Position numbers and translations under genes: made by a program
Shown: positions 6,783 to 11,849 of the stretch, one piece after another
How the letters are laid out: every line of letters begins with the position of its first letter
Position numbering within the stretch: position 1 is the stretch's first letter
The notes under the pieces: model-generated
Database searches by the model: none
Told to the model about the DNA's origin: nothing
The model's input: only the letters and a program-made list of their open reading frames with translations
From: Catenulispora acidiphila DSM 44928
Lineage (GTDB): Bacteria; Actinomycetota; Actinomycetes; Streptomycetales; Catenulisporaceae
Length of the DNA stretch: 64,000 nt
Direction of reading: 5' to 3'
Assembly (NCBI RefSeq): GCF_000024025.1
Contig: NC_013131.1
Coordinates: 1,736,001 to 1,800,000 of the forward strand

Positions 6783-7625
6783 TTACGCGTCCCGCCTCTC
6801 GAACAGCAGCGCGCCGACGATCAGCAGCACCACGACCTCGATCAGGAACACCGTGAACCCGGTCCATGGCGCGAACGCCTTGTCCGCGTGGCGATCCGTC
6901 TCGCCGAACGCGGTCACCTGTCCGCCGGCGTTGCCCGGCATCACCTTGAACAGCCAGCGGCCGACCGAGCCGGGGATGAGCTGCACCAGGTTGCCGATGA
7001 TGAAGATCAGCGCCAGTCCGATGGTGATGGCGCCGGCGGTGTGCCGGAGCAGGAAGCCCATCGCCAGGCCGAACAGCGACAGCCCGGCGAGGTAGAGCGC
7101 GCTGCCGAAGATGGCGCGGGTGGCGCCGGGGTAGGACAGGTTCACGTTGACGTGCTTGGCGCGCAACGGGATGTTGCCGAGGTAGAAGCACAGGAACGCG
7201 GTCGCCAGTCCGATGACGAAGACCATGACGGCCAACAGGATCGCCTTGGCCACCAGGATCTCGGTCCGGCGCGGCATCGCGGTCAGCGTGGTGCGGATGC
7301 CGCCGGTGGAGTACTCGGCGCTGATCGTCATGACGCCCAGGACGTACGCCGCGATCTGGCCGACGAAGGCCAGGCCAACCAGGACGATGTCCGCGGAGTC
7401 GGGCTTGCCCGCGGCCAGGTCCTTGGCGTAGGAGTCCGCCGCGGCCAGGCAGATCAGCAGCGTGATGACCGCCGACCCGGCGAACAGGGTGACCAGGGTC
7501 CAGAAGGTCGAGCGGACGGTGCGGATCTTCAGCCACTCGCTGGAGATGACGTTGCCGAAGCCGGCGCGGCCGTCGATGGCGGGTCCGGGTCCGGGGTGCG
7601 CGGCGGTGGCGGGTGCGGCGGTCAT
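6783..7625 (-). CDS. ABC transporter permease (ABC-2 type)
   Basis: A 280-residue membrane protein. After a ~40-residue cytoplasmic N-terminus there are about six hydrophobic segments (near 42-62, 88-108, 126-150, 180-198, 208-228 and 250-275), typical of ABC-2 exporters acting on drugs, lipids or peptides. Its start codon overlaps the ATPase stop as ATGA at 7622-7625. It is the last gene of the minus-strand operon that begins with the degenerate ATPase. Substrate is unknown. Confidence 0.85.
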   Translation of the reverse strand: MTAAPATAAHPGPGPAIDGRAGFGNVISSEWLKIRTVRSTFWTLVTLFAGSAVITLLICLAAADSYAKDLAAGKPDSADIVLVGLAFVGQIAAYVLGVMTISAEYSTGGIRTTLTAMPRRTEILVAKAILLAVMVFVIGLATAFLCFYLGNIPLRAKHVNVNLSYPGATRAIFGSALYLAGLSLFGLAMGFLLRHTAGAITIGLALIFIIGNLVQLIPGSVGRWLFKVMPGNAGGQVTAFGETDRHADKAFAPWTGFTVFLIEVVVLLIVGALLFERRDA

Positions 7626-8668
7626 CGCTGCGCCTCCCCGCTGCCGGGGGGCGGTGCTTGCGGCTCGGTCCGGGTTTGCGGCTTGGTCTGGGCTTGTGGC
7701 TCAACCTGGCCCGGAGCCAGTCCCGGCTGCCCCAGGACCTGGCCGGGCGCCATGCCGGGCACGCCGGCGTGGTACTCGACGCTGTCGGCCGTCATGCTCA
7801 TGAACGCCTCCTCCAGGGACGGCTGGACCACCGCCAACTCGTGCAGCCACAGGCCGTTCTCGCCGGCCAGGTCGCCGACGGCCTCGGAGGTCACGTCGAA
7901 GACCTCCACCGCGCCCTCGTCGTCGGGCAGCGCCTCGGTGTGCCAGCCCTTGCCGCTCATCAGCTGGCGCAGCTTGCCGATGTGCGGGGAGCGGACGCGG
8001 ACGTGCGTGGTCGCGTTCTGCGCGATGAACTCGCGCATCGTGGTGTCGGCCTTGATCTGGCCGCGGCCGATGACGATGACGCGGTCGGCGGTCAACGCCA
8101 TCTCGCTCATCAGGTGGCTGGAGACGAAGACCGTGCGGCCCTGCGCCGCCAGCGACTTCATCAGGTTGCGGACCCACAGGATGCCCTCGGGGTCCAGGCC
8201 GTTGACCGGCTCGTCGAACAGCAGCGTGCCCGGATCGCCGAGCAGCGCCGCGGCGATGCCCAGGCGCTGGCCCATGCCCAGCGAGAAGTTCTTCGAGCGC
8301 TTCTTCGCCACCTGCTCCAGCCCGACCAGCCCGATGACCTCGTCGACCCGCCGCAGCGGGATGCCGTTGGACTTGGCCAGGCACGCCAGGTGGTTGTAGG
8401 CGGTCCGGCCGCCGTGCACCGCCTTGGCGTCCAGCAGCGCGCCGACCTCCCGCAGCGGCACAGGCAGGTTCCGGTAAGGCTTGCCGTCGACCGTGACCGT
8501 GCCGTCGGTGGGCCGGTCCAGCCCCAGAATCATGCGCATCGTGGTGGACTTGCCCGCACCGTTCGGCCCGAGGAACCCGGTGACGGTCCCCGCCGCGACG
8601 GAGAAGTCGGCGTGGTCGACGGCGACCTTCTCGCCATAGCGCTTGGTGAGCCCGACAGCCTGAATCAT
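7622..8668 (-). CDS. ABC transporter ATP-binding protein
   Basis: A 348-residue intact ABC ATPase that would energise the adjacent permease. It has Walker A GPNGAGKST at 34-42, signature SLGMGQ at 129-134, Walker B LLFDEP at 149-154 and a C-terminal regulatory stretch of about 120 residues rich in Gln/Pro/Ala at its end. The start chosen (ATG at 8668) has GAGGAG upstream and overlaps the stop of the preceding membrane gene as ATGA. Sequence type is close to drug-exporter and bacteriocin-immunity ATPases (CcmA/DrrA-like). Confidence 0.93.
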   Translation of the reverse strand: MIQAVGLTKRYGEKVAVDHADFSVAAGTVTGFLGPNGAGKSTTMRMILGLDRPTDGTVTVDGKPYRNLPVPLREVGALLDAKAVHGGRTAYNHLACLAKSNGIPLRRVDEVIGLVGLEQVAKKRSKNFSLGMGQRLGIAAALLGDPGTLLFDEPVNGLDPEGILWVRNLMKSLAAQGRTVFVSSHLMSEMALTADRVIVIGRGQIKADTTMREFIAQNATTHVRVRSPHIGKLRQLMSGKGWHTEALPDDEGAVEVFDVTSEAVGDLAGENGLWLHELAVVQPSLEEAFMSMTADSVEYHAGVPGMAPGQVLGQPGLAPGQVEPQAQTKPQTRTEPQAPPPGSGEAQR

Positions 8669-9393
8669 GCGCTGCTCCTCGCGATCAGGCGGCGCGCAGC
8701 CGCGGCGGTCACGGCGCGCGCCATCCCGCGAATCTGCCGCCGCCGCGTGATCACCAGCTGCGCCGCGACCAGCGTGAACACAGCGGCCAGCACGGTCGGC
8801 CACGCGGCGCTCCACACCGAGGCGGCCGGCTGCACGAGATGCACGCTGGCGCGGGAACGTGCTTCGGCGACCGGCGCGGCGGGGGAGCCGGACGTCGCCA
8901 GACGGACCAAGGCGGCGGTGGCGAGCGCCCCAAGCGAACCGGCAACAAGCGCCGGGGCGCCGATCCACGCCCGACGAACGAGAAGCGCGGCGACGACGCC
9001 GACGGCGAGAGGAGCGAGCGCATGCACCGGCGCCCGACCGAGCGCGACGCACGCACCGAGCCCGACCATCGCACCGACACACGTCGCCCCCAGCGGACCG
9101 GCGACCTGGATGACCAACGCGTCGGCCGGATCGGCGCCGGCAGCGGCGAGGGCTTCGCGCCGCGCCCCGAGGCCGTCGAGGTGATGCCGGATCAACGCGG
9201 CCAGCACCAGCAGCGCGGGAATCGCCACCGCCGAATACAGCGCCCCGCCGAACGGCCACGCACCAGCCGCCGAGGCGAGCGCCATCCCGCCGACAACCAG
9301 ATGCTCGGCACGCGGCGCGGCACGCAGGAGGTCCGCGGCGATCCGCAGACGGTAGTCGAAGCGCGCGATCGGCGCGGTGATCAGGGCACTCAT
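8665..9393 (-). CDS. Polytopic membrane protein of the ABC operon
   Basis: A 242-residue hydrophobic protein of no recognised family, with about six predicted membrane segments (starting near residue 33) and a basic C-terminus (RRRQIRG). It opens with MSALITAPIARFDYRLRI. That opening is repeated, together with its Shine-Dalgarno region, at the start of the micro-ORFs upstream. The ATG overlaps the stop of micro-ORF A and its own stop overlaps the ATPase start, both as ATGA. It is probably the partner of the degenerate ATPase or a membrane subunit of the exporter. Function is not known. Confidence 0.7.
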   Translation of the reverse strand: MSALITAPIARFDYRLRIAADLLRAAPRAEHLVVGGMALASAAGAWPFGGALYSAVAIPALLVLAALIRHHLDGLGARREALAAAGADPADALVIQVAGPLGATCVGAMVGLGACVALGRAPVHALAPLAVGVVAALLVRRAWIGAPALVAGSLGALATAALVRLATSGSPAAPVAEARSRASVHLVQPAASVWSAAWPTVLAAVFTLVAAQLVITRRRQIRGMARAVTAAAARRLIARSSA

Positions 9394-9560
9394 CGGGAGG
9401 CCTCCGAATCGGCTGCGGCGCTGCGGCCGGAAATCTGGCGGTGCGCGGTCGGCTCGGCACACGGTGCGGCGCGGTGGTTGGAGGCTTGGTGGTTCGCCAT
9501 CGGCTCGGTGTGCTGGCGGCAGTCGAAGCGCGCGATCGGCGCGGTGATCAGGGCACTCAT
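9390..9560 (-). CDS. Micro-ORF A of the start-region repeat array (56 aa)
   Basis: A predicted 56-residue peptide beginning MSALITAPIARFDCRQ and ending DSEASR. Its first 13 residues match the start of the downstream membrane protein. The stop overlaps that gene's ATG (ATGA). The codons for DSEAS contain GGAGG, which serves as Shine-Dalgarno for the next start. It is translationally coupled on both sides. Whether the peptide has a function or only relays ribosomes is unknown. Confidence 0.5.
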   Translation of the reverse strand: MSALITAPIARFDCRQHTEPMANHQASNHRAAPCAEPTAHRQISGRSAAADSEASR

Positions 9561-9649
9561 CAGGAGGCCTCCGAATCGACTGCGGCGCTGCGGTCGAGAA
9601 CCTGGTGGTGCGTCGGGCGCGCGATCGAGCTGGTGATCAGGGCACTCAT
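9560..9649 (-). CDS. Micro-ORF B of the start-region repeat array (29 aa)
   Basis: A predicted 29-residue peptide, MSALITSSIARP at the start and AAVDSEAS at the end. The stop and the micro-ORF A start share one base (TGATG). GGAGG lies 8 nt upstream of both its own ATG and the next one. It is the shortest unit and looks like an internally deleted copy of unit C. Confidence 0.45.
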   Translation of the reverse strand: MSALITSSIARPTHHQVLDRSAAVDSEAS

Positions 9650-9765
9650 CGCGAGGCCTCCGAATCGACTGCGGCGCGGTGCTCGGAAACCTGATGGTTC
9701 GCCGCCGCCACGATGCGCTGGCGAAAGTCGAGGCGCGCGATCGGAGCGGCGATCAGAGCACTCAT
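9646..9765 (-). CDS. Micro-ORF C of the start-region repeat array (39 aa)
   Basis: A predicted 39-residue peptide starting MSALIAAPIARLDFRQR, with ANHQVSEHR in the middle and DSEASR at the end. It has the same start-stop overlap (ATGA) and internal Shine-Dalgarno as its neighbours. Micro-ORF D shares most of its residues, so the two arose by duplication. No signal peptide, membrane segment or Cys is present. Confidence 0.5.
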   Translation of the reverse strand: MSALIAAPIARLDFRQRIVAAANHQVSEHRAAVDSEASR

Positions 9766-9929
9766 CGCGAAGCCTCCGAATCGGCTGCGGCGTGGTGCTC
9801 GGAAGCTTGGTGGTTCGCCGCCGCCTCGATGCGCTGGCGAAAGCCGAGGCGCGCGATCGGGGCACTCATCGCGAAGCTCGCCCCATCGGCTGCGGCGCTG
9901 CGGCCGAAAGCCTGGTCGCCCGCCCTCAT
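9762..9929 (-). CDS. Micro-ORF D of the start-region repeat array (55 aa)
   Basis: A predicted 55-residue peptide. The ATG at 9929 overlaps the degenerate ATPase stop (ATGA). An internal in-frame ATG at 9869 corresponds to the repeated MSA start, here MSAPIARLGFRQR with a short deletion. The peptide ends in AADSEASR. The segment before the internal ATG (GRSAAADGASFA) looks like a decayed end of a further unit. It is the first of four coupled micro-ORFs in the chain. Confidence 0.45.
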   Translation of the reverse strand: MRAGDQAFGRSAAADGASFAMSAPIARLGFRQRIEAAANHQASEHHAAADSEASR

Positions 9930-10738
9930 CGCCCGCGCTCCGCTCCGGAACCGACCGGTGAGAACCGGTGCTCGCCGCGGGCGTGGCGGCCGATGCGGTG
10001 GGGGATGCCGCCGTGGGCTGCGTGGTTCATCATCGCGGCGGGTTCCGTGATCGGGGCGGGGAGTGGTTCGGCTGCCAGCTCGGTGTTCGCCGGCTCCGCC
10101 GCAGGGGTTTTCACCTTCACCGTGATGCTTCGGTCGGCCCAGCGGAGCACGTCCTCGTCGTCGGTGGCGACGATGATCGTGAGGCCGTGGGTGCCGCTGG
10201 CGGCGCGGAGGATGCGGAGGAGGTGGAGGCGCTCTGGGGCGCTGAGGCCGTCGGTGGGGTCTTCGGCCAGGAGGATTGCCGGGTCCAGGACCAGTGCTCG
10301 GGCCAGTGCCACGCGGCGCATTTCGCTGGGGGTCAGGTCGGCGATGCGCCATTCGGCGCAGGCGGCGGCGTCGAGGCGCTCCAGCCAGCGGAGGGCGCGG
10401 CGGCGGGCTTCTTGGCGGCCGAGGCCGGTCAGGATCAGGGGGAGTGCCGTGTTCTCCGCGACGGTGAGTTCCGGGAGGAGTTTGCCGACGCGGGGGGCGA
10501 CGGCGCACTGGGTGTGCGCGAAGCGGAGGCGGGCGGCGGGGCGCAGGGTGTGCAGCGGCTCGCCCTGGAGCCACAGTCCGCCGGGCCAGGCCGGGTCGGC
10601 GCCGGACAGCGCGCGCAGGAAGCCCTCGTCGCAGGCGCCGGGCAGGGCCACGATCTCGCCTTCGCCGACGGCGAGGGTGAGGGCGTCGGGCCCGAAGTCG
10701 CGGGCCAGCAGGATCGGGTTGTCGGACGGGATGCTCAC
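9926..10738 (-). CDS. Degenerate ABC ATPase-like protein
   Basis: A 270-residue protein that aligns by eye with LolD/MacB-type ABC ATPases, for instance LLPELTVAENTALPL at 87-101 and RRVALARALVLDPA at 141-154. The catalytic motifs are lost. The Walker A region reads LPGACDEGFL (32-41) with no GKS/T. The signature is LTPSE (135-139). Walker B has the acidic pair reversed (ILLAEDPT, 155-162). The H-loop His is replaced (VATDDED). It is unlikely to hydrolyse ATP. About 65 low-complexity residues follow the domain. GTG start without a clear Shine-Dalgarno. First gene of the coupled operon. Confidence 0.75.
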   Translation of the reverse strand: MSIPSDNPILLARDFGPDALTLAVGEGEIVALPGACDEGFLRALSGADPAWPGGLWLQGEPLHTLRPAARLRFAHTQCAVAPRVGKLLPELTVAENTALPLILTGLGRQEARRRALRWLERLDAAACAEWRIADLTPSEMRRVALARALVLDPAILLAEDPTDGLSAPERLHLLRILRAASGTHGLTIIVATDDEDVLRWADRSITVKVKTPAAEPANTELAAEPLPAPITEPAAMMNHAAHGGIPHRIGRHARGEHRFSPVGSGAERGR

Positions 10739-10759
10739 GAGCAGCCGTGTGCCCTGAAG

Positions 10760-10787
10760 GGCGCAACCGCCTAACCAAGGTTGCGCC
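10760..10787. promoter_or_regulatory. Inverted repeat upstream of the ABC operon
   Basis: A 9-bp perfect inverted repeat (GGCGCAACC with GGTTGCGCC, 10-nt loop) lies 22 nt before the GTG start of the degenerate ATPase. There is no T-run. It may be an operator or a 5' leader hairpin. GGTTGCGC also occurs just upstream of the MarR gene near 62040. Confidence 0.4.
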
Positions 10788-10842
10788 GGACGTGCGACCC
10801 TCCGGCGCCGGACCTGCGCGGCGTCCGAGTCGTCCGAAGTCG

Positions 10843-10909
10843 CCGAATGCGTGGCGTGCGGCCGGTGCGCATTCGGCCCTTCGAACAGTGCGGAATTCGA
10901 ACAGTGCGG
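10843..10909. repeat. Hairpin and 14-nt direct repeat
   Basis: A 9-bp inverted repeat (10843-10851 with 10868-10876) is followed by two copies of TTCGAACAGTGCGG at 10880-10893 and 10896-10909. The hairpin could terminate the SDR transcript. The direct repeats, 16 nt apart, could be a regulator site for the ABC operon. Confidence 0.4.
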
Positions 10910-10931
10910 GAGATCAGAGCCCGCCTCGGAA

Positions 10932-11849
10932 TCAGAGCGGGTACACGACCCCCGTCAGCTTCTCCGACTCCTCCCACAGCCGCGCCGCCAACTCCGGGTC
11001 CTGAGCCCGCCGGCTCGGCTGCACCACCTCCGGATGCCCGCGCGTCTCGAAGAAGTTGGCCGAGCCGTAGTACTGCCCGCCCGCCACATCCGGTGCGACC
11101 GCGGCCCGCACCTCCGGCAGCACGCCGACCGCCGCCTTCTGCGCGAACAGCGAGTTGCCGACGCGCAGGATCGCCTTGCGCCAGCCGGTCGTCACGGCGA
11201 ACTGCAGGTTCGTCGCCGAATACCCCGGGTGCGCCATCAGCGAGCGCACCGGCGAGCCCGCCGCGCTCAGCCGCCGCTGCAACTCCAGCCCGAACAACAG
11301 GTTCGCCAGCTTCGACTGCGCGTAGGCGGCGTTGGGGTTGTAGCCCTTGGTCCGCATCAGGTCGTCGAAGTCGATCGACCCCTGCTTGTGGAACGTCGAG
11401 GAGACGGTCACCACCCGCGGGTCGCTCCCCGCCGCCAGCAGGTCCAGCAGCAAACCGGTGAGCGCGAAGTGCCCGAGGTGGTTGGTCCCGAACTGCAACT
11501 CGAAGCCCTGCTTGGTCTGCTGCTGCGGCGCCATCATCACGCCGGCGTTGTTGATCAGTACGTCCACGCCGACGCCGTCCTCGTGCAGCCCTCGCGCGAA
11601 CTCCCGCACCGAGTCGAGGTCGGCCAGGTCCAGCGTCCGCAGCTCCAGCGATGCGCCCGGTACGTCCTGCCCGATCCGCGCCGCCGCGGCCTCGCCCTTG
11701 GTCCGGCTGCGCGCGGTCATCACCACATGCGCTCCGTTCCCGGCCAGCAGCCGCGCGGCCTCCAGCCCCAGCCCGCTGTTCGCGCCGGTGACCACGAACG
11801 TGCGTCCGGCCAGGGCCGGGATCGCGTCGGCGGTCCACTTCGTGCTCAT
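10932..11849 (-). CDS. Short-chain dehydrogenase/reductase
   Basis: A 305-residue NADP-type SDR of the retinol dehydrogenase/protochlorophyllide reductase-like group. It shows TGANSGLG at 21-28, NNAG at 100-103, catalytic Ser near 150-151 and Tyr176-x3-Lys180. The alkyl or carbonyl substrate is unknown. The start is set by AGGAGG 5 nt upstream, though the frame is open a little further. It is divergent from the TetR gene over ~100 nt with a palindromic site, so TetR is its likely regulator. Confidence 0.9.
   Translation of the reverse strand: MSTKWTADAIPALAGRTFVVTGANSGLGLEAARLLAGNGAHVVMTARSRTKGEAAAARIGQDVPGASLELRTLDLADLDSVREFARGLHEDGVGVDVLINNAGVMMAPQQQTKQGFELQFGTNHLGHFALTGLLLDLLAAGSDPRVVTVSSTFHKQGSIDFDDLMRTKGYNPNAAYAQSKLANLLFGLELQRRLSAAGSPVRSLMAHPGYSATNLQFAVTTGWRKAILRVGNSLFAQKAAVGVLPEVRAAVAPDVAGGQYYGSANFFETRGHPEVVQPSRRAQDPELAARLWEESEKLTGVVYPL

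Follow-up and report, generated by a model that had tools for sequence, protein, structure and literature searches.

The question raised by this locus is why an operon should carry, between two of its genes, a series of very short reading frames that are built from copies of the next gene's start and joined to one another by overlapping stop and start codons. We analysed it in the soil actinobacterium Catenulispora acidiphila DSM 44928, within a window of 64,000 nt (the whole stretch of DNA under study, NC_013131.1 1,736,001-1,800,000) from a single-contig genome of 10,467,782 bases. The operon lies on the minus strand, in the order atp1, four micro-ORFs, mem, atp2 and perm (Table 1).

Table 1 Features of the operon, with positions numbered from the first letter of the window.
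Feature	Positions	Strand	Description	Basis
atp1	9926..10738	-	270-aa ABC ATPase-like protein, GTG start	Pfam ABC_tran 1.3e-10; present in 9/9 relatives
micro-ORF 1	9762..9929	-	55 aa, start 9929; runs in frame through decayed start copy A (ATG 9869)	
micro-ORF 2	9646..9765	-	39 aa, start 9765, copy B; GGAGG and ATGA at both entry and exit	
micro-ORF 3	9560..9649	-	29 aa, start 9649, copy C; TGATG exit (9562-9558)	
micro-ORF 4	9390..9560	-	56 aa, start 9560, copy D; stop overlaps mem start (ATGA 9393-9390)	
mem	8665..9393	-	242-aa membrane protein; its start, MSALITAPIARFDYRLRIAA, is the copied segment	sequence comparison of heads
atp2	7622..8668	-	ABC ATP-binding protein, 348 aa; ATGA overlap with mem	Pfam ABC_tran
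perm	6783..7625	-	ABC-2 type permease, 280 aa; ATGA overlap with atp2	Pfam ABC2_membrane families

The stop codon of atp1 overlaps the start of micro-ORF 1 (ATGA, 9929-9926), and downstream of the array the mem-atp2 and atp2-perm junctions overlap as ATGA, GTGA or TGATG in the nine genomes in which they are readable. By eye, atp1 is without a recognisable Walker A motif (P-loop) in all ten genomes compared; since the P-loop is absent everywhere and yet the best stretch of the protein is 68-83% identical across nine relatives, atp1 appears to be a conserved ABC ATPase-like subunit and not a gene in decay. Its length is 306 aa in G006, 287 aa in G003, 362 aa in G004 and 267-281 aa in the remaining seven genomes, and this variation sits ahead of the conserved C-terminal end, in sequence that by eye is rich in A, E and P. 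The mem protein had no Pfam or NCBIfam match. A scan of 8600-11000 for sigma-70-type promoters and for hairpins returned no internal promoter or terminator, and no known RNA family was matched at the array, the one sub-threshold Rfam match falling elsewhere in the operon. A 438-aa open frame (9441-10757, plus strand) runs antisense to the array and atp1; such frames are common in GC-rich DNA.

A preliminary description of this DNA had reported five minus-strand copies of a start segment between the ATPase and the membrane gene, and we confirmed them at 9869, 9765, 9649, 9560 and 9393, the last being the start of mem itself. Over a 48-nt start segment, copies B, C and D and mem are identical at 41-46 positions (46/48 for copy D and mem), and TRF detected tandem repeats of period 116 (2.2 copies, 90% matches) and period 89 (1.9 copies, 86%). 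Copy A is decayed, sharing just 22-26 of the 48 positions with the others in ungapped comparison; GGGGCGAGC replaces GGAGGCCTC, and its head is shorter by four codons. The copies are spaced at 104, 116, 89 and 167 nt, every one 2 mod 3 as described earlier, and a fifth spacing absent from that description, the 60 nt between the ATGs at 9929 and 9869, is 0 mod 3. Since these two ATGs share a frame, they belong to a single 55-aa ORF; the earlier statement that each copy opens its own frame thus holds for the four working starts, which are chained, and not for copy A. In net length, copies A and B differ by 12 nt, B and C by 27 and B and D by 51 (the spacing of copy D being the longer), all multiples of three. 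From atp1 to mem the junctions read ATGA (atp1/1), ATGA (1/2), ATGA (2/3), TGATG (3/4) and ATGA (4/mem), so that each is a stop/start overlap of -4 or -1 with an SD upstream. The predicted SD is -9.5 kcal/mol at each of the four working copies, -9.0 at the atp1/1 junction and weaker, -6.7, at 9869; the weaker SD falls at the sole inner start that the fusion made needless, which we count in favour of coupling.

The origin of the copies was assessed by comparing the 42-nt heads of the micro-ORFs with the mem head of the same genome, against a background of 1192 ATGA starts with at least 150 open codons each, drawn from 60 own-genome stretches (1.2 Mb). None of the 1192 background starts scored as high against mem as the heads of the four own copies or of the single micro-ORFs of two relatives (G009 and G007); the score of the G005 head was reached by one and that of G003 by 34, so that the G003 match is weak. 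Heads thus beat the entire background in six of eight units, which counts for derivation from mem. The G007 and G005 heads score somewhat better against the mem of certain other genomes than against their own, as would be expected were those duplications old. The start at 9929 was considered as a sixth head copy and rejected, 1141 of the 1192 background starts scoring equally. An SD-ATG pattern allowing at most one mismatch occurred 19 times in eight of the ten genomes, and the array provides four of its five occurrences in the own genome. The array is best read as a minisatellite at an operon junction, which probably arose by tandem duplication of the mem start.

Chance was considered as a source of such chains, using five order-5 Markov texts of 1.264 Mb each, which together contained 232 chains of three linked micro-ORFs, 30 of four and two of five. 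The real sequence examined, 1.264 Mb of the 10.47-Mb genome made up of the window and 60 stretches of 20 kb, contained no chain of four or more besides the array and five further chains of three, a comparison that is not like for like, the Markov text being without long genes. The five other chains of three lie in the own-genome control stretches L036, L050, L056, L068 and L070. Because the Markov texts also yield chains of four and five, we regard chain length alone as weak evidence: a four-link chain is not impossible by chance in GC-rich DNA, and what goes unexplained by chance is the homology of the copies.

We compared the locus in the own genome and nine Catenulispora relatives, all of which carry mem. 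The gene order SDR-atp1-mem-atp2-perm is complete in seven relatives; the G006 contig ends before the SDR gene, and the G004 operon is split across two contigs. The own genome has four micro-ORFs, G005, G009, G007 and G003 have one each, and G001, G002, G008, G006 and G004 have none; only the own lineage has expanded to four. The preliminary description had taken the chain to be maintained and had proposed that relatives be compared for copy number and frame. As regards frame this stood, with an unbroken chain of stop/start overlaps from atp1 to mem in all ten genomes and none of five inserts breaking it, a result that counts for the reading preferred below. It was not borne out for the array itself, a multi-copy form being found in none of the nine same-genus relatives; the close sisters G005 and G001 differ in micro-ORF count (1 vs 0). 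In an unrooted tree of four proteins, G005 (one micro-ORF) pairs with G001 (none) and G003 (one) with G004 (none), at 100% support each, and G009 with G007 (one each) at 99%. On this tree, presence and absence of micro-ORFs need at least three changes, for example two gains and one loss, and by our count a single origin takes four losses. The search for an outgroup to root it found mem in 10 of 60 genomes, own genome included, and in none of the other 50, all outside the genus. A scan of contigs likewise gave matches solely in Catenulispora or Catenulisporales records.

The reading that we favour, at a probability of roughly 0.55, is that the duplicated junction is held in register because termination-reinitiation feeds mem. 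The operon genes atp1, mem, atp2 and perm are arranged as a chain of short stop/start overlaps, in which tandem duplication would have copied the mem start (SD, ATG and about 10-20 codons); with the atp1/mem junction duplicated, the copied start would have become a micro-ORF between both genes. Ribosomes finishing atp1 would restart at micro-ORF 1, then at each next one and finally at mem, which would depend on this hand-over by termination-reinitiation with a local GGAGG; perhaps, in addition, an untranslated stretch of 0.5 kb would give Rho access. Selection would purge any change that interrupts the relay and tolerate whole copies and in-register insertions or deletions, leaving copy number (0, 1 or 4 in the genus) largely unconstrained. 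The homology of the copies, the layout of the junctions, the differences among Catenulispora genomes and the register of the inserts are observed; that the micro-ORFs are translated, that mem needs coupling and that selection accounts for the register is what we infer, and the notion that the junction would tolerate relay-preserving insertions only draws on published work on coupling, ribosome delivery and Rho loading. Four overlapping pairs tested in H. volcanii are described as strictly coupled, and the pairs tested in E. coli, save one, as showing coupling, often with help from an SD within the upstream gene (PMC6728339); a short ORF, it is proposed, may serve merely to deliver the ribosome (PMC12548453, PMC4633059); and Rho is described as loading on untranslated RNA (PMC12548453). 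The folding of the array is ordinary (z -0.64), which we count against the coupling reading.

The register of the inserts bears on whether coupling is under selection. The inserts of the five genomes measure 536 (own), 119, 95, 92 and 110 nt, all 2 mod 3, and the eight micro-ORF lengths (164, 116, 89, 167, 119, 95, 92 and 110 nt) are all distinct and again all 2 mod 3. The rough chance of this is (1/3)^8 = 1.5e-4 for the eight lengths, or 9.7e-4 for at least eight of nine in register with the inner 60-nt spacing as a failure, probabilities that assume independent events and overstate the case since copies of one unit share their register. The earlier claim that coupling survived every insertion or deletion accordingly holds for the five inserts, each of which keeps the chain, and has to be qualified for the inner 60 nt, which were absorbed by in-frame fusion. 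The strongest rival, which we think improbable though deserving of real weight, is a neutral tandem repeat whose first duplication fell in register by luck, later unequal exchanges inheriting the register with no selection on coupling. Under it the shared remainder comes by descent from one unit, and the independent events are few (one or two origins), a point against the coupling reading; presence and absence take three changes only, and two in-register origins cost just 1/9. It has more difficulty with eight different lengths whose net differences are all multiples of three (12, 27 and 51 nt within the array and 3 nt between the G009 and G007 inserts). As a control, the SDR-atp1 spacer takes all three registers across nine genomes (1, 1, 1, 1, 0, 2, 0, 0, 2), which also argues against a neutral repeat. 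This control is weak, since four of the five insert-bearing genomes share one spacer register too (1, 1, 1, 1, 0; agreement of at least 4/5 has a chance of 0.14), and shared descent may make registers look conserved. Overall, the register statistics lend moderate support to selection on coupling.

Interior stops in frames 0, 1 and 2 number 0, 1 and 0 in 264, 264 and 256 codons, which tells little at 74% GC; frame 0 would be expected to hold 3.25 by base composition (chance of none 0.04) and 0.46 by a first-order Markov model; stop-free frames were rejected as coding evidence, the other frames being equally open, and openness in all registers is what a neutral repeat would also give. At third codon positions the micro-ORFs reach a GC fraction of 0.85, compared with 0.68 and 0.67 at the other positions (312 codons). 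We count this for selection on coupling, with the qualification that a raised value is expected of translated or of mem-derived sequence and is in part inherited from mem.

The strength of the SD before mem bears on whether the gene needs the relay, and on a further possibility, that four relays adaptively set the ratio of mem and the transporter to atp1 in the own species, every hand-over losing ribosomes or every SD adding some. The predicted SD before mem is -9.5, -9.5, -9.5, -11.0 and -5.0 kcal/mol in the genomes with an insert (-5.0 in G003) and -9.0, -9.0, -8.5, -8.4 and -6.5 in those without (-6.5 in G006), the G003 and G006 sites being, together with the inner start 9869, the weak ones among the junctions. 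The proposal that the insert brings a stronger SD was rejected: four of the five insert genomes do show one, stronger by 0.5-4.5 kcal/mol, and G003 does not. In that genome a weak SD lies ahead of mem and the chain is nonetheless intact, which fits dependence on coupling; conversely, strong SDs would allow initiation without coupling, and this counts against the reading that we prefer. An adaptive copy-number effect could draw on the four successive GGAGG sites of equal predicted strength (-9.5 kcal/mol), on the confinement of the four-unit array to the own lineage and, by analogy, on M. tuberculosis isolates, in which longer rnc-fpg1 MIRU-VNTR repeats are reported to accompany modestly higher fpg1 mRNA (PMC2734929). 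We nevertheless judge it distinctly unlikely, as among nine relatives, which share the gene order wherever it is readable, five are without a micro-ORF and four carry a single one, and the gain in SD strength before mem is small where there is one and reversed in G003.

The preliminary description had also suggested a family of real micropeptides, and had proposed dN/dS between copies as a check. Among the own copies dN/dS is 0.51, 1.37, 0.65, 1.02, 0.56 and 1.91 (values from few codons), and other pairs range from 0.29 to 1.51; the ratio of 0.39 between G009 and G007 (31 codons) and the recurrence of the heads and of the DSEAS(R) tail would suit peptides working with the transporter. The start and the SD account for the conservation of head and tail, the interiors are strongly divergent between species by alignment, the micro-ORFs are missing in five of nine relatives, and none of the peptides had a Pfam match. 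A micropeptide function was accordingly rejected, being backed by neither dN/dS nor Pfam and to our mind very improbable; constraint on the peptides appears weak, and they look incidental, as by-products.

The closest known kind of element is the mycobacterial MIRU, whose original description is reportedly that of Supply et al. in 1997. MIRUs are described as repeats, apparently mobile, whose insertion at a start codon leaves their ORF coupled at -4 nt (PMC12548453); they measure 40-100 bp, occupy 41 chromosomal places and have proposed roles that include differential translation within an operon (PMC2734929). The earlier statement that no such system had been described was therefore too strong, since the internal ORF of a MIRU is linked to the following gene by -4 nt coupling (PMC12548453). 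As far as these descriptions go, the array resembles MIRUs in being a short, often tandem, intergenic repeat of variable copy number whose ORF is joined to what follows by -4 nt coupling (one array junction, TGATG, is at -1), here between the genes of an operon. It differs from them in that its units of 89-167 bp were found at one locus and share their sequence with the adjoining gene's start. Among 40 scored of 142 first-look candidates, five own-genome matches had E below 1e-3, all at 1745333-1745897, and the remaining listed matches were short, with E of 0.03 or more; genome-wide dispersal was thus not found, and a dispersed or mobile repeat was rejected, there being no further own copy at E below 1e-3 in either of two scans with 40 scored candidates each. 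Insertion of a mobile, MIRU-like repeat into the overlap of atp1 and mem is hardly credible despite the shared architecture (-4 coupling, tandem copies between genes), since those matches all lie at the locus and the head shares its ancestry with mem: the array unit is home-grown, not dispersed, and has another source.

Other published systems share single features with the array. Termination-reinitiation at ATGA and TGATG, for which an SD is often described as important, shares with the array its overlap types and the location of an SD within the upstream ORF, and is described for gene pairs, whereas here serial micro-ORFs would act as relays (PMC6728339, PMC12548453). In mycobacterial small ORFs with RTGA coupling the stop likewise overlaps the next start, and ribosome delivery without a defined peptide has been proposed; those analysed begin leaderless transcripts upstream of an annotated gene, whereas the array is intra-operonic and serial (PMC4633059). 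The small ORF mgtQ, between mgtC and mgtB, promotes translation of the next gene, as we propose here; as described, it is one ORF acting through stem-loops and particular residues, with repeats going unmentioned in that account, whereas the array consists of repeats (PMC8092293). Nothing nearer than MIRUs appeared among the literature matches listed for coupled micro-ORF chains or tandem gene-start copies, a search with subscription papers mostly outside its scope.

Beyond this operon, we put forward tentatively, as a possibility that we hold somewhat doubtful, a translational ratchet in which every gene of the operon receives its ribosomes from the preceding one and start duplications therefore persist only if they keep the chain, so that neutral duplication leads to obligatory relay chains. 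If true, this would open a constructive-neutral path by which new small ORFs, and possibly the tuning of operon stoichiometry, could arise in GC-rich bacteria, and further gene-junction minisatellites of this kind should exist. The natural series of 0, 1 and 4 relays at one junction would make hand-over at ATGA, and its loss per step, measurable. The locus also suggests that small ORFs can become chained even when their peptides serve no purpose, which calls for caution in the annotation of small proteins.
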